From assembly GCA_947169045.1 (NCBI GenBank), contig CAMVOC010000009.1:1-34433 (forward strand): DNA of 34,433 nucleotides, written 5' to 3'. The notes under the pieces were generated by a model. It was not told the origin of the DNA. It was given only the letters and a program-made list of their open reading frames with translations, and made no database searches. Made by a program: the position numbers and the translations under genes. The DNA comes from an uncultured bacterium. Its GTDB lineage: Bacteria; Patescibacteriota; Gracilibacteria; Absconditabacterales; Absconditicoccaceae. How positions within the stretch are numbered: position 1 is the first letter of the stretch; each line of letters begins with the position of its first letter. This document shows positions 12,329-24,398 of the stretch, in pieces.

Positions 12329-12368
12329 TGTAATTATAAATTAATAATTAAAATATCTAGTTTATTAT

Positions 12369-15300
12369 TTATCTTCCATCGGTACCACCAGCTTCACTGC
12401 TTCCCGTACCGCTACCAGAACCACTTCATGAGTCACCTTCACGATTATCGCTTCCTGATCCACTACCTTCGTCTCCTTCACGAACTTGTTCTGTGTCTCC
12501 ATATGCAGGGTCTGTCGTACCGAGTCATACCGTAGCGTTGAGAGATCTCACTGTTTTTTCTATGTTATTCTCTGTTTGCCTTGTATAACTAGATAAGTAA
12601 CGTTTTCATGGTTTTATTCAGCCTTCTTCTGTTGTTGTTATTTCTTCTGACACTGTTGTGGTAAGTCCTTCTATTCTAAATCCTACGGATTCATTCGCAC
12701 ACTCTCCTAGTAAATAGATGTACGTTGCTACTTGCAGACTATTTTTTCCTTCAGGATTTAAGGTGACAGTACCATTGTCAGCAATATCAAATTTCTCTCC
12801 TTTTAAGATCCTACAAAGGTTTTCTCAAGGTTTTTCTGGATCATCTGGAATTGTCACAGATTTGTTTGTATGCCTCTTTATAAGGTCTGATATTTTGGAT
12901 ACAATTTCAATTCTTCTCTGAACATCTTTCTCACTTTTCAATCCCATAACTTTTCCGTTTTTGTCTTGATACTCTCAGAAAAGGATATCTTGGGCCTTTT
13001 GGTAAGCATCACTGCCCGGAAGAAGTTCTTTTTCCACAATAATTCCTTCACCAATACGTTCATTCAACACACTCGTTCCTCCGAGACTTGTAGCTCCTAG
13101 TCCCGGAATTGTTCACTGTCTATAAAATGCTGAATATCCTATTAAAGATGAGTCTACTGTTCTCTGAATCGTTTCAGGCAGATGTTCTAATAATTCTTCA
13201 AATCAGAGATCTTGTAGCTCTTTTGGTATGTTTCTATGCTTTTTTACCTCTGTTTTAACTTCCTCTCCTGTGTTTAGAGATCTTGGGATTCTAGCAAATG
13301 CTTGTTGCATTCTATCGATAATTGTTTGTTTATCTGTGTCTGAGGTCTCTGATGAGTTGAGGGTATTTATTATTGCTTGAATGTTAGGTCTATACGTGTT
13401 AAGCCAGTTTTTTACTTGTTTTCTTACTTTCTGATCCAAGTTTTTAACCAATTTATCAGCCTGTTTCTCATCTACTGTCGATTGAATTATCGCTAGTAAT
13501 GTTTCTTTATTTGGCTCTTTCTTGAAGTTGTTATACAGTCATGTCTTGTTTGTCATTTGATCGATATATCCCAACAACATGAGATATTCTTGATTCTCTT
13601 GAGCTTCATATAAGTGAAGCTCTTTAAGTATTTGATTATCAAATTCAATTTTTTCTGTTATTGATAGCGGTTTCTCAACTATATCTGTTTTTGTTTTCAC
13701 TTCTCTTGGTTGTTCTGTACCAGATCCATAGAGTTCTGTTTTTCCTCCTTCATAATTTGTACCTTCTCCAAAGCGCAAAACATTTTTAACCCCCTCATTG
13801 GTTTTTGTCTCTTTAAACCTCATCATTGCACTGATAGGGATTTGCATTACTGCTTGATTCTCAATAAACTCTGGAGATTGGAGATTCAGATTTCCTTCTC
13901 GATTTCCTTTAACTTCACCTTTCATATCTTCAGCAAATTCGATACTAAGGATTCCTCCGTTTGCATTTGCTAACTTTCGTGGTACATTTATATAATCTCC
14001 GCTTACAGAAAGCTTTAAATTGTCAGGTAATTTATACGTATGAGTCGCTTCTAAACGACGATTGATGTAGGCAATGTAGTTTTCTGTAGGGATCTCCGCC
14101 ATATCTTCATATCCTATCATTGCTGCGTTATTCATATAGTCTTCCGCTACAGCTTCCGCAGTATCTTGATAGTGTAGATTAAGATATCTTGACTGTGTGT
14201 ATCCTAGTGATAATGTTCTAGGCGTAAAACTTCCAATAATCCATGACAATCCTATCTGTGCTCATGATGTATGCCAACCCTTGTCTACTAGCGTTGCATT
14301 ATCCTGATTTCTTCCATTTAAAATAAAATAACGTTTTAGATTATGTTTTACGAACTCCCATCTTTCAGCACTATTATCTCCAGCGATTGCTTTTTCTCCA
14401 TATGTTCTGAGAAAATTTATGATATTATCCGCAGCTTTTTGGGTATGTTCCGGTTTCGTATCATTAAATGCTTGGCTTAACGCGTCAATTAATGTACTTC
14501 TCGCAGCATTTTCTTCTCCTGGAGTACTATTGAGAAGTTCACTGAGTTGTCCTGCATTAAATATAGGGTCTAATACTTGATCCATTAAGTCTCCAAATCT
14601 CTGTTCTACTCCTGTCCATTTTTCTTCCACACCTGCAGCAAAATCTCTTACGTAATTTATGCCAGCGCTTAATACTCCAGGGAAGGAATATCCTACCGTT
14701 GCTTCGAGTGTATGCTTCTCTTCTACACCAAGATTATCAAGAGTTTTGTTAAGATCCTTACCTGCAGTTACTGCACCTCCTGCTGCTAGAATATCTTTTA
14801 TCGTTTTAGGGCTCTCAAGACCAACTGACGCACCAGCAAAAGCATCTCATCTAATTCTTCGTCCTTTTCCGAGATCAATATCTCCTGTAGATCGTCCTAA
14901 TCATAAATTAACACTAGGAGATCCGTTGGTCATCACAACATCACCATTAACATGTAGTCCTTCCAATATATTATCAAGGTTTGCTACTACTCCACCTATT
15001 CCTATTGAAAAGAAATCTTTATTTACTGTTTTTCCATCTGGCGAAAGAATTGGCTTTCCGCCTCTAAATAGAGAATTAGCAATTACTGCTGCTGTTTTCC
15101 CAAATATATAACGTTGTCGGTCGTCATCCATCTGGTCAAATTCTCTCCATCCACCAGTTTTTGGGTCAATAAATCCTAGCTCTTTAAGATGATCTACAAA
15201 AGCATAGAATTTCTTAGCTGTTCCTTCTTTCGCTTTTGCTTCGAGTTCTTTTCTTACGTTGAGAATGATACTTTTCCCTACTTTCTCTTTCTCTTTTAGG

Positions 15301-18300
15301 AGTGCTTCATATATCTCTCCGATTATCTCTTTCTTTTTTTCAACTGCTACGAGTTCATCTTCTAGAGCTTTAGCTCCCGCTTCATCTCCATATTGCAAAA
15401 TATATCTTGGATCATATCCTGTATGATACAAACTTTTTTGTACAACTAATAGACGGTAATAATCTCCTTTCATCCAGTTAAGGAATCCTTCTATATCTGT
15501 AGGAGGAAGATCATTTTCTTGTAACGTTTTATCCTGTTGTCTAACAAACTTTGCAATATTTTCTATCACTCTTTTTTCTCCTTCTGATCCTTCTTTAAGA
15601 GTAAAATAATCTGCCATCTGGTCAAGTAGCACTGGCAGCTCTTGTCCTTTATATGCAGACTTACCATCTGCATTATCTATGGTTGCATTAAGATCTATAT
15701 CTCCTATTAAAAAGCTGATTTTACGATATGCTGGTCGATCCTGAGGGATCCTTTTTTTAATAGCCTCAAATCTTGCTATTTTTTCAGCTGCCTTGTCTTC
15801 TGGGTCTTCAAGATGAGCTACGGAATCTTTAATCAACTTATTATATCCTTCTCATTCCTTAAATGGTTTCAATTCAGATTCTCGATCTTCTTCTTTTAAT
15901 TTTGGAGTATAGTTTTGTCGCATAATCTCCTTCAAAGATTTTGTCTCTAATTGTTGCAATAACAAAACGAGTCTCTGCGTATAATATTGTTCTTTGACTA
16001 CTCCAAGATTCGCGTCTGTAGAAAGATTATTCGCTACTTCATATTGAGCTCTTAACGCATCTCGAGCGACTCCTCCTCCTGATGAAGTATAGAGAATTCT
16101 CAGTGTTCATCAATCCTCACTTCTTATTTCTCTCTTGAATAATTTTGATTCATCTTCTGTCGCAAAGTCTCTTTTTGCTTTAGCTAATGCTTTTTCTCTT
16201 GCTTCCTCTTCTGTCATTTTTCCTAAATCATATGAATCGCCACTTTCATGATTTTCTGCATCAATGTTCGCTTTTAGTAACTTATACACTCCTGGCGCTG
16301 CTTCCTTTAGTTCATCAAACGTTTTTACCCCTTGTTTGAGTGAAGTAAATAGCACTTTAAGGTTTTTTTCTTGATAGTCTAATGCTTTAAATATTTTGCG
16401 CAGATTAGTGATTCCTTCTACATCGTTTACTCCTACTGCTTCTTCTGCTAAGAGTCCGTTATCCTCAAGTTTAATTGTTCTATCAGCTAGAGGATTTGCT
16501 CACAATCGCTTAAATCCTTTTGCTCGGATCTTCCGCCAAACTTCATTCCTTAAGTTTGTAATCTCATCCAGCCAATCGTTTGTACTTTTTTCAAAACCTC
16601 CTTCTAACTTAAGGGATGGTGTATTATGAAGATACATCTTCTGATCTTGAAATTTCCCTTCTTCATAAGCTGGGGTTTTGATTTGTTCTAATTCTGGTAA
16701 TTGTGGAACTTCGAAACTAAACGGTTCGAAAGGGAGTTTCTCATTTGTTTGAAGACTCAATTTTGGAGTCTCTACAGTAAATTCTGTTTTCGTTTCCTTT
16801 ACTGGGATGATATATTCGTGTATGTATTGTTCATGTACTTTATTTAGATAAGTTCAAGCTCCATATCGTCCATCAAGATCATGAACTGCACTAAATGGTT
16901 TTAAGTTCAATAATTTTTTTAATGTTGTCTTCTTTTTTCATATTGTTATCGTTCCTTTACTTTGATCTTCTATCGTCTTTTTCAAGTCGTTAAGGTCTTT
17001 TGCTAAGTCTGTGATCTTTTTCATTTCTAGGTTCGGTTCCGTTATGGTCCTTGCAAGTGTCTCTGATTTTTTCTGATACTCCTCATAGTTTTTTTTGAGG
17101 TTTGATATGTTTTGGTTTTCTATGGTTTTACCTGCCTCTTCCAATATTTTTATATTGTCTTCACATATTTTTGTTCACATGAAAAATTGTCCTGCTTGCA
17201 ACATTATTTGTCTCTCTGGCGTCACTGGTTCCTTAAATATCTTCAACGCTTCTGTTTCGTTCCAGTTTTTTCCGTACAAAGATTTTGCTTTTTCTTGATA
17301 AAATTCATTCTGACTGCTTATGTAATTCTTTGTATCCATTTGCAATATTCACGCATATTTTTGTTCCGGAGTTAGGTCTATTAATTTGTCATGCATAACG
17401 TCATAATGATCAATTGCCTCTACTATGACATATTTGTTTCCTTGCTGATCCTTCTTTGGATCTTTGTATTTTTCCTGCAGCTTACCTATCGTATTCGGAT
17501 AATAATTCTTGTAAGTTTCTGTTTTGTAATCCTTTCGATTAGGTTCAAATATTTTACGACCTTCATTATCCTCGTTCTTTTCGTCGTTATAATCGAATTT
17601 TTTGGTATGATATAGATTTTGATATTTATTAATTCTATCGTATACATATACCCAATCTAGAGTACTTACGTTTTTGGTTCCTATCCCCTTACTTTTGATG
17701 ATTATATAGTCGTCACTTCTCCGCGCTTCGTGGGCATCCGGCCAGTTTAGTCCTTTTCCTTTTGGGAACTGTATTTTTCATATGAGGGCTTGAATATCTC
17801 CCTCATTTTTATCTACTTTCGTAAATTGTTGCTTTTGTAGCTCAGAATAGTCCAATTCTGGTCTTTCATGCTCTACTCTCTTACTACTATCTACTCCTGT
17901 GGTTTGTAAGTCATTTAATTTCTCTTTCTTATTCCCATTTATTTTTAAATTACCATCCTTATAATTGATGTTTGGATTCTCTCCATAGTTAATATTTTGT
18001 TTCCCTTGTATCAAAAAAGATATAATATCTGGCGATAAAGCTGTTAGATATTCTTGAACATCTCATCATCCAGTTGATGAGATGAAATCTTTAACATATG
18101 TTTCTATCTCTTCATTTGTAGGAGTATTATTGTTATCCTCCCAAAACTTTTTAAACCCTGAGCTGTTTAAGAACTCTTTTAATTTACGACCAGCAGTATT
18201 ATTTATATCACTAATATATTTATTCAGCTCATTGTTCTTATTATTATTTACATTGCTCTGTTCGTTTATCTCTGTTATTATTTTCTCTCCATTTTCGTTA

Positions 18301-19016
18301 TATGTTTTAATCTCTGTTTCTAATTCCATTAATTTTTTATTTAACTCTTCCGCTTTGGTATTATAATTTTTTATCTGTGCATTTAACGCTGCAATCTCGT
18401 CATTTGTTAGAGAAAGTTCTTGTTTCTCAAATTTTCTTAATTTCTCCCTATATTCTTCTCATTGTTCCTTTATTTTTTGATATTCACTTCCTTCAGAGAA
18501 TTCGTTTATTCTCTGTTGTAGCTCTGTTTTCTTACTTTCGAGCTCTCATAACTTTTGGCTTTTCTCTTTATCGTTTTCTCATAACTTCCCTTTTATATTA
18601 GCTCGCAACATTGGTATTTCTTTTTCTTCTTTGCTTCCAATTTTCGCTAAAAAATCGTTTTGCGTCTTTGGTAAAAGATCTACTAATACAGGCTTTGGTG
18701 TCTCGTTATTCTCTACGTGTTCTTTTTTAACTCTAATTTTACAACCATCAGATAATGTTAGATATTTCTCACCAGTATATCAATCAGGTTGCGGAACATC
18801 ATTCCATCAGTCAATGGTCTTAGCACTGTTTCGCTTTATTTCTCGTTTCTTTTCTGCTCACCCTTCACCAACATTCCGCTTCTGAGCTTCAATCATTCCT
18901 TGCGCTGACAATCTCTTAGCGATTTCTGTAGGATCAAGAATTTCTAGCTCAGGGAAGAGGTCATTATTCAGTTCCACATTAGCTTTCTTGTTCTCTTGAG
19001 TGTTTAATTTAACCAT
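12369..19016 (-). CDS. giant protein of unknown function, 2215 aa
   Basis: I do not recognise this protein. One frame stays open from ATG at 19016 to TAA at 12369 once about 29 TGA codons are read as Gly; I checked every gap for TAA and TAG. There is no signal peptide (MVKLNTQENKK...). Residues about 120-330 are charged and coiled-coil-like; 400-950 are charged and helical. Residues about 1330-1620 have short Gly-rich alternating strands (for example SVNLGLGRS, EATVGYSFPGVLSAGINY, GLSWIIGSFTPRTLSLGY) reminiscent of beta-barrel strands. The rest is helical, and the C-terminus is a Gly/Ser-rich tail (GSGSGSGTGSS). It lies 40 bases upstream of the DUF11 giant and downstream of the cell-wall-binding genes. 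Two successive genes of similar giant size suggest partner proteins (inference). There is no Shine-Dalgarno. Confidence 0.85.
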
Positions 19017-19164: not shown

Positions 19165-19236
19165 ATGCTGAATGGTGGTTTTTTAAAAAAATCCCCGCGT
19201 AAGCGGGGCAAGCCTCCTTTATCAAGGAGGCACTAG
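19165..19236 (+). CDS. possible 23-aa small ORF overlapping a palindromic repeat
   Basis: ATG at 19165 is preceded by AAGGAG (19152-19157) at good spacing, about 30 bases after the plus-strand promoter at 19106-19135. The 23-residue product is basic (K, R and P rich) and is encoded mostly by the palindromic repeat itself, ending in TAG. It is one of the few clear Shine-Dalgarno sequences in the window. It could be a leader peptide, a small RNA region, or chance. Confidence 0.25.
   Translation: MLNGGFLKKSPRKRGKPPLSRRH
19184..19208 (-). terminator. Rho-independent terminator of the PG-binding/LRV operon
   Basis: On the minus strand CCCCGC-TTAC-GCGGGG (19208-19193), followed by A and a run of T. 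It lies about 40 bases after the TAA of the 214-aa gene. It separates that operon from the giant genes. Confidence 0.75.
19189..19232. repeat. palindromic intergenic repeat, copy 2
   Basis: Two adjacent hairpins: CCCCGC-GTAA-GCGGGG at 19193-19208 and GCCTCCTT-TATC-AAGGAGGC at 19211-19230. The first shares CCCGCGTAAGC with the element at 5639-5706. Both copies border the block that carries the giant genes. Confidence 0.6.
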
Positions 19237-19247
19237 GGATGTATGGT

Positions 19248-19892
19248 TTAGATTCTTTCTAATGATCCTAGCCAATCAATCAAATCTCATGGATCTATAT
19301 CTTGAAATCTTTCGATTCTTTTTTCTGCATCTGATTTTTCCTCATCTTCTGGGTCGGTTGTTAGATTTGGAATCTTTTCTGTGGTGATTTCAGTTTTTTT
19401 TTCTTGTTTTTCTTTTCTTATTGATTTTTGAGTCCACGTTTGTGCAGGTTGAGTTTGTAATTTAATGCTTTGTAATCCTTGAAATGTTTCGCGTCATGCT
19501 ATTCCATCAATGGCAAGTGGGTATCCTTGCTTTAGGATCTCTTTTTGTAGCTGTTTTACATCTCGTTTGGTCATGCTATTTTCTCTGATGAATTGTTTGA
19601 GCTCTTTGAGCGAACTTACTGTTTGCATCTCGGACATCAATTGTTGGACGCGTTCTTTTTGTTGCAGTAAAAATCCCAAGGTATCTGCTTTCGCCTCTAT
19701 CTTTCTCCACGTTTTTGGTCCAATGATTCCATCAATCTCTTTCTTATTTCTTCCCCATACAAATTTTTGAAGCGTTATTTTATCAGTACGAGACATTCTG
19801 CGGTTTGCCATCTGGTAGCTCCCTTGCAAAAACGCCTCTTTTACTAGTTCTTCTCCCTGAGATTGATATTGTTTTTGTTGCTCGATTGACAT
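19248..19892 (-). CDS. peptidoglycan-binding-like domain protein, 214 aa
   Basis: Residues about 38-70 match the peptidoglycan-binding (PGB1-type) pattern: LQKFVWGRN, a spacer, then DGIIGPKTWRKIE. A charged helical region follows, then a second DG motif (LAIDGIAG, Gly by TGA at 19496-19494). The C-terminal 75 residues are rich in Lys, Glu and Thr and look disordered, ending in DWLGSLERI. There is no signal peptide. TGA also encodes the Gly of the last DPGD. Its start lies 25 bases after the LRV gene, so it closes that operon ahead of the terminator at 19184-19208. The wall-binding role is inferred from the motif only; no catalytic domain is visible. Confidence 0.75.
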
Positions 19893-19917
19893 GTTGATAA
19901 AAAATATTTAAAAAAGA

Positions 19918-22248
19918 TTATTGTTCTTTTCGTAACCCTCTCTTTTGTAATATCCCTTTCCCTTTGTATGGCTTATCCCGTCAGTATACTCCCAACTGAT
20001 TGATTACTTTAATTAAAGCTTCTATTACTTCAGAATCTGTTTCTTTTTTGCAGAAATCCTCGAGTAGCGGTGTTGATTCATTGTTCTCTATTACTGCTTT
20101 ACGAATTTTTGGATCCTGGCTTTTGCTATATACTGTTAAAATATTAATGTCCTTACTGTTCTTAACATCTTCTACGGTTGGATTCTCTAACGGCTTTTCT
20201 CCTCAGTTCTTCACCTCGCTCGTAGCTGATGGAGCGGTCTCTTGAGACTTACGATCATATGAGGTGATATTCTCTTGGCCATCGAAGTTATAATGGTCTT
20301 CAGCTATTTTTGGGGAAATTGTCGTTATTGTTTTCATTCATCCTCGTTTCTTTTCGTTCTTAGCTATATAATCTTCTGCTGCTTTTTTTTCGAAAAATAT
20401 CCCAGCGTATGCGTTTTCTCAAGTTTGTCGAGCATCTATGCCTTTGTCCTTTCTATATTTTGTATCTAGGTCTTTCCAATAACCATTCCTTCCAATCTGG
20501 ATAGCTCGAATCGTTCCTCCTCGCTCTTTAATATTCTCCTTCGTTATTATGAAATCGCTCTTTTCTTTTTCTTCTCACTTTTTATTTGTATCAGATTTTT
20601 TTTCTATTGTTACTGGTTCTTGTGTGGTAGAAGAAGTAGTATACGCATCGAGAAGTTCTTTTGATTGATCTTTTGATTGATTTTTCGTGTTTTGTGATTT
20701 GTCTAAGTCAGTTGATGTTTTGTTTGGAGTTTCTTGCTGAGCTTCTTGCGTTTGAAGTGCTTGCTTTTGAGCTGCTTCTTGGGCTTGGAGGGCTTTAAGT
20801 CTGGCTTGAGCCTCCTTTTTAGTCTCAGTCTGCTCACCAACGTTTTTATTGTTAACTATGGCTCCTAAAACCTGTTGAGTAATTCACTCTCACTTATTCT
20901 CGGTCAAGATTTTCAAAATATCTTGATTTTCCTTTTTTGCAAGGATTAAAGCCACGTCTTCAGTGATGCCTTGATTTGCAGCTAGACCTTTTGGAAGATC
21001 TAGTTTACTAATCCAATATTTGTTATTCTTAGCAAAATCGCTTAATATCCTTGGAGGTGTACTAGGATTTGTTGCTAAAGCGTTACACATTTTTCTGGCT
21101 ATTCATTTGTCACTATAGTTCTTGTATAGTTTATATACATTAGTTAGCCGATCCTCTTCAGTATTAGGATTACTTGCAATATTTTCCATAATATTAATCT
21201 CTATGTCTGATTTCTCTCACTTTGATCCAATCTGATTCATTATTTTATCTAATATCCATGACGGAGTTGATGAGTTGGCTGAAATTGCTCGCCAAACCTC
21301 AAGTTTTTTGTCCTCTTTGTAAAAAATATAGTCCTTATTTTTGTATATTTTGTTTATAATATTTGTATATGTGGTCATTTGTGCTATCATTTTAACTGTA
21401 TCGTCAGATTTGTTTTTATTTCACAATACTCAAGATTGTACTTTTTCTTTTCCTTTTTTAGCAAGTTCCTGTAGCAAGTTATCGTTCACGCTCTGATTTT
21501 GAGTGAGATTGTACCGAATATCTTCACACCAGCTTTTCTTGTCTCATCTGTTTATGTCGTACTCCACAAGATACTCTAAGATTTTTTTCTCTGTTTGAGT
21601 TTTTGCTACTCTTTCTGTAGCTTCTTTAGAGATATTTTGATGTCCCAGAGCTTTTAGAATTTGTTTTTCCTGTTTGGCTTTTAGTAGAACATTGTCTAAA
21701 GCTTCTGCTGGTGTAGTACTATTATTTATTAATGCAAATATTAGTTTCACGTCGTTAGCTTCTAAATTCTCTGAAAAAAAGATAAGCCATTCAGGATCTG
21801 TATCTTCTGCCACCATATCCGCCCAATTTTCTTTTTCTCAAAGTAAGAGATTCTTAGTGCTTTGATTTATACCATTCTGATTTATTTCCTGAACTTTCAA
21901 AAACATATTCCCATTTTTATCTGATATGAGATTAAATTGGTACAGATCAGTTTTATAAGAATTGTTGTTACTATTGAATGATTGTAAGATACTCTCCCGC
22001 TCTTCGTCGTCCAAACTCGAGATGTATTTTTTCATAACTTTTTTTACATCTTCTGTGTTATTTACCGGTTCTTTTTGGAGTTCTATTATTCCCTCTCACC
22101 CTTCACCATAAAACGTTGTAGCATCTTTCGCGATATCTACTAATTTCGGCATACTCACTTTTTCTAGCTCCTCAGCTAGAAATCCTTTGGTAAGCTCTTT
22201 GTCTTCCACTCTGGTTTGAAGTTTGTTTAGGGAAGTTGTACTTTTCAT
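19918..22248 (-). CDS. LRV/HEAT-like repeat protein, 776 aa
   Basis: Contains helical repeats of the leucine-rich-repeat-variant type, such as ISANSSTPSWILDKI, ATNPSTPPRILSDFAKN and AANQGITEDVALILAKK. They are spaced about 30-35 residues apart near residues 320-440, with related units near 170-220 and 710-746 (KAVIENNESTPLLEDF). A Gln/Ala/Lys-rich low-complexity linker covers about 455-530. A compact segment near 560-620 (IQIGRNGYWKDLDTKY, YAGIFFEKKAAEDYI) is unassigned. There is no signal peptide. About a dozen in-frame TGA codons read as Gly, several in GG or GEG contexts; standard translation leaves only fragments of 66-90 aa. The gene sits between the PGB/NPGN gene (37 bases upstream) and the 214-aa gene (25 bases downstream). 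Such repeats usually mediate protein contacts; the partner is unknown. Confidence 0.8.
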
Positions 22249-22285
22249 GGTGAATTAGGGTAAACTGATAAAATGTTACTAACGC

Positions 22286-23185
22286 TTATGCTCTTTTACT
22301 TTTGGCCACTCCTTCGGTGATTCCTCTATCATTTAGGAGTTGGTACATCTTGTGATCTTCATATCTTGCAATCCATTCTGCAATATATTTCGTTGGGATG
22401 TCTTTCACTGGAAGTGTATTCCATAATTGCTCGGCTTCTTGTGCTGATTTTCCCATACTTCTGAGCACATTTTTTGCCCAGTTTTTATATCCTGCTACTT
22501 TTTCTTTCACGATTCTACCTTGTGTCCATACGCAACGTATTTGTGCAAGGCTTTGTTCTGGATTGTAACGTTTTGACTCTCAGCTTTTTATCTTATCGAT
22601 TTGATCTAGCATTGCTTGATATCCTTTCTCTGGTGAAGAAAAGACTCCGTATCTACTTTTACTTTTCCCTAAATCTCCAGGAGATCTCATATTTCCTGGG
22701 TTATAATTAGAGATTGCAGCGGTAGATCCGTATTTTTTCTTGTCGGCAGCCAACTGTTTTTCGTATGCTGTCCTTTCTTGCGCGCTAAGCGTTCTTCCTG
22801 TTTCTCAAAACTCTTTATATCAAAGGCTGATCCATTTCTCTTTTAGTTTTGCAAATGATTTTGGTCCAAATTTTCCATCAACGGCTACTCATAAATATTT
22901 TTGAAATTCTTTCACTCTTTTTTCGTTTTCTTTCCCTGCTCCAAACAGCTTTTTTATCTTTTTTGGAGAAAACATCTTTTGTTCATAGAGATATTGCACG
23001 AGTCCTTGCATATCATCTTTGTAGTGTTCTAGTTCCTGCTTTATATTCTTGATCTGGATATCGCTCGTCAATAAGGCGAGATCCTCGTTTTCTTGCTGCC
23101 AATTGGGTGCGTCCAAGGTCTCCTCATTGAGGGAAAGGACCTCCTCCTCTGGCATTTCTTGCTCTGTTACTGCTATTTCGCTCAT
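22286..23185 (-). CDS. PG-binding-like plus NPGN lysin-like protein, paralogue 2 (299 aa)
   Basis: The N-terminal 50 residues are acidic, without a signal peptide. Residues about 72-120 form a PGB1-like domain (KRVKEFQKYLG then VDGKFGPKSFAKLKEKW). Residues about 160-215 carry NYNPGNM and YGVFSSPEKGYQAML, a pattern seen in phage virion and lysin-type proteins (NPGN ... FavF.sPe.G..A). The C-terminal third is helical. TGA encodes the Gly of YLGVAVDG, SLGYKEFGE and IKSGES. It is the first gene of an operon with the LRV and 214-aa genes and has a near-consensus promoter at 23222-23250. It is a close paralogue of the gene at 23360-24268. Cell-wall binding is likely; lytic activity is inferred only from motif similarity. 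Confidence 0.8.
22488..22653 (-). repeat. identical tract in the paralogue pair, copy A
   Basis: 166 bases identical to 23598-23763, at an offset of 1110 bases. The tract covers the end of the NPGN domain and the linker (VFSSPEKGYQAML through KEKVAGY). Just outside it the paralogues are roughly 80% identical. Confidence 0.93.
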
Positions 23186-23221
23186 GTTGTTGTATAAGTT
23201 ATAAAATTAAAACACCTTCTT

Positions 23222-23250
23222 ATTATACAAAAAAAACAAAACTTTGTCAA
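23222..23250 (-). promoter_or_regulatory. consensus sigma70 promoter of the PGB/NPGN-LRV-PGB operon
   Basis: On the minus strand TTGACA (23250-23245), a 17-base spacer and TATAAT (23227-23222): a perfect match, 37 bases before the ATG at 23185. The upstream flank (TTTCAAACGCCGAAATT) resembles that of the paralogue's promoter at 24306-24334, so the promoter was duplicated with the gene. Confidence 0.85.
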
Positions 23251-23359
23251 ATTTCGGCGTTTGAAATTTTGTTGGGGGAAAGCTTTTGCATACGTAAAAA
23301 CAGCATTGTGGTAGGGTTTTCCCCTAGATTTCCAACAATACTGCTCGTAGTCCTTGTTT

Positions 23360-24268
23360 CTACTGGTATTTTTTATTTCTATTCATTCTATTTCTTCTTC
23401 TGACTTCACTTTCTGCTAGGGATTTGGCGATTCCCCTATCATTCAACAAATCGTACATTCTTCCATCTTCTGCTAGAGCAATTCCTTCGGCAATATATTC
23501 CGTTGGGATGTCTTTAATTGGAAGTGTATTCCATAATTGCTCGGCTTCTTGTGCCGTTTTTCCCATACTTTTGAGCACATTTTTTGCCCAGCTTTTGTAT
23601 CCTGCTACTTTTTCTTTCACGATTCTACCTTGTGTCCATACGCAACGTATTTGTGCAAGGCTTTGTTCTGGATTGTAACGTTTTGACTCTCAGCTTTTTA
23701 TCTTATCGATTTGATCTAGCATTGCTTGATATCCTTTCTCTGGTGAAGAAAAGACTCCGTATCCTTTACTACTTCTTCCCAGATCTCCATTACATTTCAT
23801 ATTTCCTGGGTTATAATTACATACTGCGGCAGTAGCTCCGTACTTTTTCTTATCGGCTGCTAATTGCTCTTCGTATGCTGTTTTCTCTTGCTGAGTAAGC
23901 ACCTTTCCTGCTTCTCAAAAGTCTTTATATCAAAGGCTGATCCATTTTTCTTTCAGTTTTGCAAAAGATTTTGGTCCAAATTTCCCATCGACGAGCGTTC
24001 CAATATATTTTTGGAATTCTTTCACTCTTTTTTCATTTTCTTTCCCAGTTCCAAACAGCTTTTTTATCTTTTGGTGAGAAAACATTTTTTGTTCGTAGAG
24101 GAATTGTGCCAATCCTTGCATATCATTCTTGTATTTTTCCAGTTTCTGTTTGATATTCTTGATCTTAATGTCTGTCATCAACAGGGTCTCCTGTTTCTCC
24201 TGTTGCTGCCAACTAGGAGTATACAAGGGATTTCTCTCTTTTCCTGAAAGTAAGTCTGTTTTATTCAT
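23360..24268 (-). CDS. PG-binding-like plus NPGN lysin-like protein, paralogue 1 (302 aa)
   Basis: Same architecture as the gene at 22286-23185. The N-terminus is short and polar without a signal peptide. The PGB1-like domain lies at residues about 62-110 (KEFQKYIG, VDGKFGPKSF). The NPGN motif is near 153-157, followed by YGVFSSPEKGYQAML and a helical C-terminus that ends in a basic tail. It differs from its sister by Cys residues flanking NPGN (VCNYNPGNMKCNG) and in the last 30 residues. ATG at 24268 was chosen because the open frame further upstream runs through the promoter. The stop is TAG. It has its own promoter at 24306-24334 and stands alone upstream of the sister operon. Confidence 0.8.
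23598..23763 (-). repeat. identical tract in the paralogue pair, copy B
   Basis: Partner of 22488-22653, 100% identical over 166 bases with sharp edges. Confidence 0.93.
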
Positions 24269-24305
24269 GCTCTTTTGATAAAAGATAAAAATTATCCATC
24301 TTGAA

Positions 24306-24334
24306 ATGATACTCCAAGAGAGGCGTTTTGTCAA
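24306..24334 (-). promoter_or_regulatory. promoter of PGB/NPGN paralogue 1
   Basis: On the minus strand TTGACA (24334-24329), a 17-base spacer and TATCAT (24311-24306), 37 bases before the ATG. The spacing to the ATG is the same as at the sister promoter 23222-23250. Confidence 0.78.
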
Positions 24335-24361
24335 ATTTTCGTGTTTGAAAAAATTTTTTAC

Positions 24362-24398
24362 AAAAAAAAGGACGCGTGCAAACTGCAATACTGCGTCC
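24362..24398 (-). terminator. Rho-independent terminator of the alpha operon
   Basis: On the minus strand GGACGC (24398-24393) pairs with GCGTCC (24375-24370) around a partly self-complementary loop, and eight T follow. It begins about 20 bases after the rpoA stop, so rplQ is not in this transcript. Confidence 0.85.

Follow-up and report, generated by a model that had tools for sequence, protein, structure and literature searches.

Organization of the locus

The window (the whole stretch of DNA that was analysed, 34,433 nucleotides) contains two very large adjacent genes on the minus strand. The first of these (12369..19016), termed here the giant, encodes a protein of 2215 amino acids in genetic code 25, with neither a signal peptide nor a transmembrane helix. 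After 40 bp (12329..12368), in which no terminator-like site is reported, the strand continues into the partner gene (P0002, 5843..12328). The partner is a protein of 2161 amino acids with DUF11/isopeptide-fimbrial repeats, a signal-peptide-like N-terminus and a conserved C-terminal domain with the motif LLIEYxPx..PPGAxxF. Residues ~640–780 and 850–990 of P0002 form a near-perfect internal duplication of ~130 residues that includes an Asn-rich linker.

Upstream of the giant a strong intrinsic-terminator-like hairpin (19193..19208, minus strand) lies between the gene pair and a set of genes (19248–24388) that have PGBD and transglycosylase-like domains without signal peptides. The neighbouring gene at 19248–19892 has two PGBD-like motifs, and those at 22286–23185 and 23360–24388 (minus strand) are near-duplicates, each combining PGBD with a lytic-transglycosylase-like domain and lacking a signal peptide. 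The upstream genes were considered as part of the same system as the pair, and rejected because the terminator intervenes and they are absent beside the copies in relatives.

Reading frame of the giant gene

The frame of the giant runs from ATG to TAA with no internal TAA or TAG, and contains 29 in-frame TGA codons read as glycine (table 25). The standard code cuts it into ~30 pieces. Over the same interval the other five frames contain 39–157 TAA and TAG codons each, and the plus strand is crowded with stops, ruling out a plus-strand reading of the gene. The longest run without TAA or TAG in simulated sequence (30 Markov-1 replicates of the window, six frames) was 266 codons, against 2215 in the giant frame. 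GC contents of 0.48, 0.33 and 0.26 at codon positions 1, 2 and 3 provide a coding signature. An earlier note, made from the sequence alone, had proposed a hidden 6.6-kb gene here for a protein of 2215 residues, free of TAA and TAG when TGA is glycine; the gene is confirmed at its exact coordinates, on the minus strand, which the note had left unstated.

The assignment of TGA to glycine in this gene is supported several ways. In the family alignment, the columns facing TGA codons of the window are 25% glycine in the relatives (68 of 274); the figure is 38% for columns facing GGN and 5.7% for the remainder. Between closer pairs of relatives, TGA for the most part stands opposite GGN or TGA. Among the tRNAs of the genome is one of 74 nt with the anticodon UCA, whose acceptor starts with GCGG like that of the tRNA-Gly; ARAGORN labels it SeC, by its anticodon. 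TGA is also required as a sense codon by neighbouring genes, namely those for the Asp-type and Arg tRNA synthetases, UvrC and ribosomal protein S13.

Pairwise dN/dS among relatives is 0.18–0.67 wherever dS is unsaturated, indicating purifying selection over the whole length of the giant; the values are rough, with synonymous sites close to saturation. Unbroken single frames of 1500–2350 amino acids recur in relatives at the same operon position. This runs counter to several separate genes, which the earlier note had named as a possible refutation along with a strong match to a described family; no such match was found. It might still be argued from the ~30 pieces of the standard code that the stops are real, and that what lies here is a series of short genes or one gene that has decayed. 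The glycine enrichment at TGA columns, the UCA tRNA, the dN/dS below 1 and the existence of full-length relatives all contradict this, and it can for practical purposes be dismissed. The giant frame is, with near certainty, one real gene under purifying selection.

Members of the family and conserved sequence

No family in Pfam or NCBIfam covers the giant, as the earlier note had anticipated in recognising no domain in it, and no Pfam family is present in more than one member when all the aligned members are searched. The outer-membrane barrel family PF13557 is found in a single member (6e-4), which is a lead only. Weak, scattered matches in an HMM search of PDB sequences with C- and N-terminal profiles (S100-A9, E 0.004; p300, E 0.001) were judged to be chance or coiled-coil and rejected.

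The first relatives found were a protein of the same genus (L006; 2353 amino acids, 28% identity) together with two others from the same GTDB family, after which a C-terminal profile reached 25 genomes. The first profile search overlooked divergent giants, and these were recovered by looking upstream of the partner gene; in five genomes blank to the first profiles a divergent giant lies directly upstream of the partner. A broad profile built from relatives places members in 37 of the 49 genomes of the same GTDB family, and in 63 of 341 genomes of the class if partial matches are included; several of the matches outside the family are partial. Two sets of weak matches (L139/G312, and some partial ones in family f14) were set aside as probably not members. 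Matches that carry a name in a genome collection belong to SR1 (Absconditabacteria) or Gracilibacteria MAGs, and no relative outside the class was present in anything searched. At the level of sequence, the giant is established as the founding member of an undescribed, class-restricted family. The earlier suggestion of a new protein type under code 25 is thereby supported, for a single gene whose family is not modelled by the libraries used.

Family members are about 910–2350 amino acids in length and share only ~20% identity. This low identity, and the splitting of the gene that goes with code 25, mean that the giant can be missed by annotation. The gene is mostly present as a single copy per genome, with housekeeping genes as neighbours, rpoA and yidC among them.

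The most conserved stretch is C-terminal (12681..13142, minus strand, residues 1959–2112), with the consensus GYxAFYR...T..GxT...FYLxGxCxNESxG. The C, N, E and S of CxNESxG are invariant in 24 aligned close members; divergent members retain only CxNE or part of it. The protein has few cysteines, and ends in a Gly/Ser low-complexity tail (12372..12464, minus strand, ~residues 2185–2215) that had already been remarked upon. Many members likewise have low-complexity tails, in which Gly, Pro, Ser or acidic residues abound and whose sequences are unrelated. Two further motifs are more weakly defined. A PGBD-like 'DGRYGAGTYLNKV' motif of the form DGxxGxxT, located by eye at 16815..16853 (minus strand, approximately residues 722–734), is a lead only. 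There is no Pfam match to PF01471 or PF09374 in the giant, and PF09374 in one relative (E 0.002) is below the cut-off; PGBD-like motifs are found in several family members. The second is an acidic loop like those of EF-hands and dockerins (15639..15701, minus strand, ~residues 1106–1126; alignments A6 and A8). Its family consensus is DxNxDG, and it is degenerate in the window protein; relatives give weak EF-hand and dockerin matches.

Pairing with a secreted partner, and divergence

The giant is the first gene and the partner the next on the same strand, at a spacing that is usually 20–250 bp. In 37 of 42 testable loci, two signal-peptide-bearing relatives (L131 and L132) included, the gene that follows on the same strand within 350 bp starts with a signal-peptide-like sequence, as called by a simple hydropathy rule with a threshold of 1.7. 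The partner in the window scores 1.51, just under the rule. One gene intervenes after the giant in L089, L134 and L137; the partner lies beyond it in the first two, and the L137 contig stops short of any partner. The L051 locus is broken by Ns. N-terminal hydropathy has a median of 0.45 among the giants, compared with 2.44 among the genes that follow them. Across the 49 genomes, both genes are present in 33 and neither in eight, with four having only the giant and four only the partner (Fisher p=0.0004); most of these single cases are at contig ends. The test is not independent, as some giants were found via the partner or with profiles derived partly from such loci. The giant and the secreted, adhesin-like giant nevertheless form a conserved gene pair, which we regard as near certain. 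The survey of SR1 and Gracilibacteria genomes proposed in the earlier note has therefore yielded both family members and a conserved pairing with a secreted giant.

Other families of the class have the gene order rnpA, yidC, a 240-residue signal-peptide protein with an LPxTG-like end, the giant and a secreted Cys-rich partner. The ~240-residue protein precedes the giant in L086 (6047–6769), L087 (5936–6652), L088 (12728–13441) and L133–L137, often behind rnpA and yidC. In one genus (L008, L035, L036 and L038) the place of the single partner is taken by three proteins in succession, of ~350, 890 and 1200 amino acids, each with a signal peptide.

Between this genome and the same-genus relative whose copy is closest, identity is 28% for the giant and 82–84% for RpoA, S4 and S11. 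Over 136 genome pairs the C-terminal domain of the giant averages 24% identity and that of the partner 44%, the giant always being the less conserved. As measured by these identities the giant is demonstrably fast-evolving, far more so than the housekeeping genes compared.

Predicted fold

Structure prediction had been put forward in the earlier note together with profile searches; the latter matched no known family, and a barrel is predicted in two AlphaFold models. Strands 1–6 of the predicted barrel (residues 1354–1458, 14643..14957) are followed by a helical insert (residues 1459–1581, 14274..14642), after which the chain continues as strands 7 and 8 (residues 1582–1614, 14175..14273). C-terminal strands (residues 2109–2164, 12525..12692; all on the minus strand) are predicted to close the barrel. 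The Gly-rich strand region that had been noted at about residues 1330–1620 is thus borne out, as a Gly-rich beta region at about 1354–1614.

Model 1 (residues 1180–2175, 23 sequences) has a mean pLDDT of 65 and a pTM of 0.41, with local pLDDT values of ~70–85 for most of the barrel strands and 80–90 for much of the C-terminal domain. Its best match in VIA-align is the designed transmembrane barrel 8uzl_C (Z 9.7, rmsd 2.7, 131 of 142 residues), with OpcA (Z 8.7) and the KdgM porin (Z 8.2) among further matches; the matched range takes in all three groups of strands. Model 2, of a compact ortholog (L086, 1043 amino acids, 27 sequences), has a mean pLDDT of 73 and a pTM of 0.47. Its leading beta match is KdgM (Z 8.4 and 8.2, 148–149 of about 170 residues), and the next are a TOC-complex barrel and pilus ushers. 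The two alignments overlap in part, which limits the independence of the models, and Z values of 8–10 are only slightly over the usual background of 7–8. Foldseek against the PDB gave nothing at E<=0.001 for either model.

The hydropathy of the predicted strands alternates in the family mean to an extent equalled in none of 5000 random draws for the compact set, and in 11 of 5000 for the close set. Taken singly, the window protein gives no significant alternation (437 of 2000 draws). The test is blind to whether the hydrophobic face points outward, as in a membrane, or inward, as in a soluble barrel. From the matches of the two models and the alternation at the family level, the Gly-rich and C-terminal strands likely form one barrel. 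That it is of the membrane type, with 10–12 strands and large helical inserts, is probable on the models without being secure, the hydrophobic face being unresolved. The giant resembles the outer-membrane barrels KdgM and OpcA, which rank among the best matches to one or both models, in predicted strand number and topology, and in predicted strands that are amphipathic at the family level. It differs in its huge helical inserts between strands, its lack of a signal peptide and its lineage without Omp85. Identity is just ~10–13%, over the aligned part only, and the giant has no Pfam match to the KdgM porin family, so the likeness to KdgM, with identity of about 10–11%, is purely structural.

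Export and the cell envelope

The giant has no signal peptide, as the earlier note had stated, nor any transmembrane segment, and no signal peptide is found in close members. Judged from N-terminal sequence, nearly all of the family demonstrably lack one. The sole exceptions are two relatives of 914–936 amino acids (L131, 9475–12285; L132, 8802–11546), each of which has the barrel region and is followed by another secreted protein. Their signal peptides argue that the fold works outside the cytoplasm. No secretion route was identified for the giant without a signal peptide. In size, in the absence of an N-terminal signal peptide and in its acidic motif like a Ca loop it resembles the RTX/LapA-type adhesins, which leave by type I secretion. 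It differs in having no RTX nonapeptide repeats (no such Pfam family at E<=1), and no ABC exporter or membrane-fusion genes, as a type I exporter would have, were identified among the window genes scanned.

Omp85/BamA was found in none of the 49 family genomes, compared with 7 of 14 control genomes, and all 17 genomes tested for a sortase have one. Two papers on Vampirococcus and Strigamonas, both Absconditabacteria, report a Gram-positive cell wall structure (PMC8080830, PMC13059738) and a life upon diderm Gammaproteobacteria (PMC8080830, PMC13059738). For Vampirococcus a single membrane, a thick fibrous coat and a fibrous gap of ~100 nm to the host are described, and the membranes of epibiont and host do not even seem to be in contact (PMC8080830). 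Given a lineage without Omp85 and published relatives that are single-membraned, a conventional outer-membrane role in its own cell is unlikely, by inference.

Discussion

It is an open question how ultra-small, single-membraned epibionts of the SR1/Gracilibacteria type gain access to what lies inside their diderm hosts. Most genomes of one such family carry the gene pair, a secreted fibre with a predicted membrane-type barrel, in cells without outer-membrane assembly machinery. Our preferred reading as a whole is of a barrel delivered or inserted where the cell meets a diderm, with the secreted fibre as a tether; it is tentative, and falls short of being probable. The giant would act at the contact zone with a diderm host or prey, and be released or delivered across it. 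Its barrel could then insert in the outer membrane of the partner cell, as a pore or receptor upon which the DUF11 fibre, Sec-secreted and encoded in the same operon, might dock, in a Tir–intimin-like logic operating between bacteria. The fast divergence of the giant may in that case reflect host specificity. This delivery-and-tether mechanism is inferred only, with no experiment on surface location or delivery, and remains doubtful. That a single-membraned epibiont places a giant barrel without a signal peptide in the outer membrane of a diderm host, there to be a pore or receptor for the co-encoded fibre, seems to us rather unlikely taken by itself.

The giant could instead be a structural protein of the predator's own surface. 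It would exit by an unrecognised route and stay in the fibrous coat or wall, its barrel serving as a stalk or anchor and at no point inserting in a membrane, with the DUF11 protein as the outer fibre. Such a role would suit a partner that is secreted and has fimbrial isopeptide repeats, and the PGBD-like motifs of several members; the EF-hand-like pieces can also be invoked. The loci of other families begin with a protein having a signal peptide and an LPxTG-like end, a sortase is present, the two signal-peptide-bearing relatives put the fold outside the cytoplasm, and a thick fibrous coat is described for Vampirococcus (PMC8080830). It is harder to reconcile with the absence of a signal peptide from the main lineage and with the membrane-type barrels that head the beta matches of both structural searches, and we consider it somewhat unlikely. 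A protein with neither signal peptide nor transmembrane segment might simply remain in the cytoplasm, as a chaperone, scaffold or regulator for making or exporting the adhesin, and its barrel would then be soluble with a hydrophobic core. The tight spacing to the adhesin gene without a terminator-like site, and the few cysteines, are consistent with that, but signal-peptide-bearing relatives of the barrel, divergence far above that of the housekeeping genes compared, the Gly/Pro/Ser low-complexity tails and the sheer size are not, making it improbable.

The PGBD and transglycosylase genes adjoining upstream raise one more possibility, that the giant is virion-associated cargo of a mobile element or prophage. 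These genes do not accompany the relatives' copies and are separated from the giant by the terminator, and the giant is mostly single-copy beside genes such as rpoA and yidC. Phage records and two viral-contig scans contained no relatives, and Foldseek gave no significant viral fold match. A phage virion protein was rejected on these grounds, and cargo of a mobile element is largely refuted and highly improbable.

Tir and intimin are a translocated receptor and a surface adhesin. By analogy, the preferred reading of a delivered barrel with a tether would share with them a proposed delivered receptor, and the pair likewise has one gene without and one with a signal peptide. The differences are that no link in sequence or fold has been shown, that no type III system has been identified and that the target would be a bacterial outer membrane. 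We know of no described system in which a lineage without Omp85 pairs a giant barrel that has no signal peptide with a secreted fibre. If true, the preferred reading would constitute a delivered receptor and adhesin system between bacteria, and the gene pair, the conserved CxNESxG tip and the barrel boundaries offer concrete candidates.

The downstream DUF11 giants are of a known kind, whereas the barrel giant falls outside every family library used. P0002 is of the same kind (DUF11, secreted, giant) as the giant DUF11 adhesins reported in Vampirococcus and Strigamonas (PMC8080830, PMC13059738). The passages of these papers that were compared contain no description of the giant or of the pair (PMC8080830, PMC13059738), subscription literature lying outside the scope of the comparison. 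The DUF11 repeats and signal peptide of such DUF11/B_ant_repeat adhesins are present in P0002 and absent from the giant. A second DUF11 giant of 3909 amino acids is encoded on contig 4 of the same genome (L175, 5618–17347); it has the same C-terminal domain, and no barrel giant adjoins it. A similar DUF11 giant of 4479 amino acids is present in another genome (L183 in G001). At one further locus (L049, 1–4621) the partner gene is cut off by the end of the contig, where it reads ...GCFPAGTKVTMAD, which is a motif of the Hint/intein-like kind.
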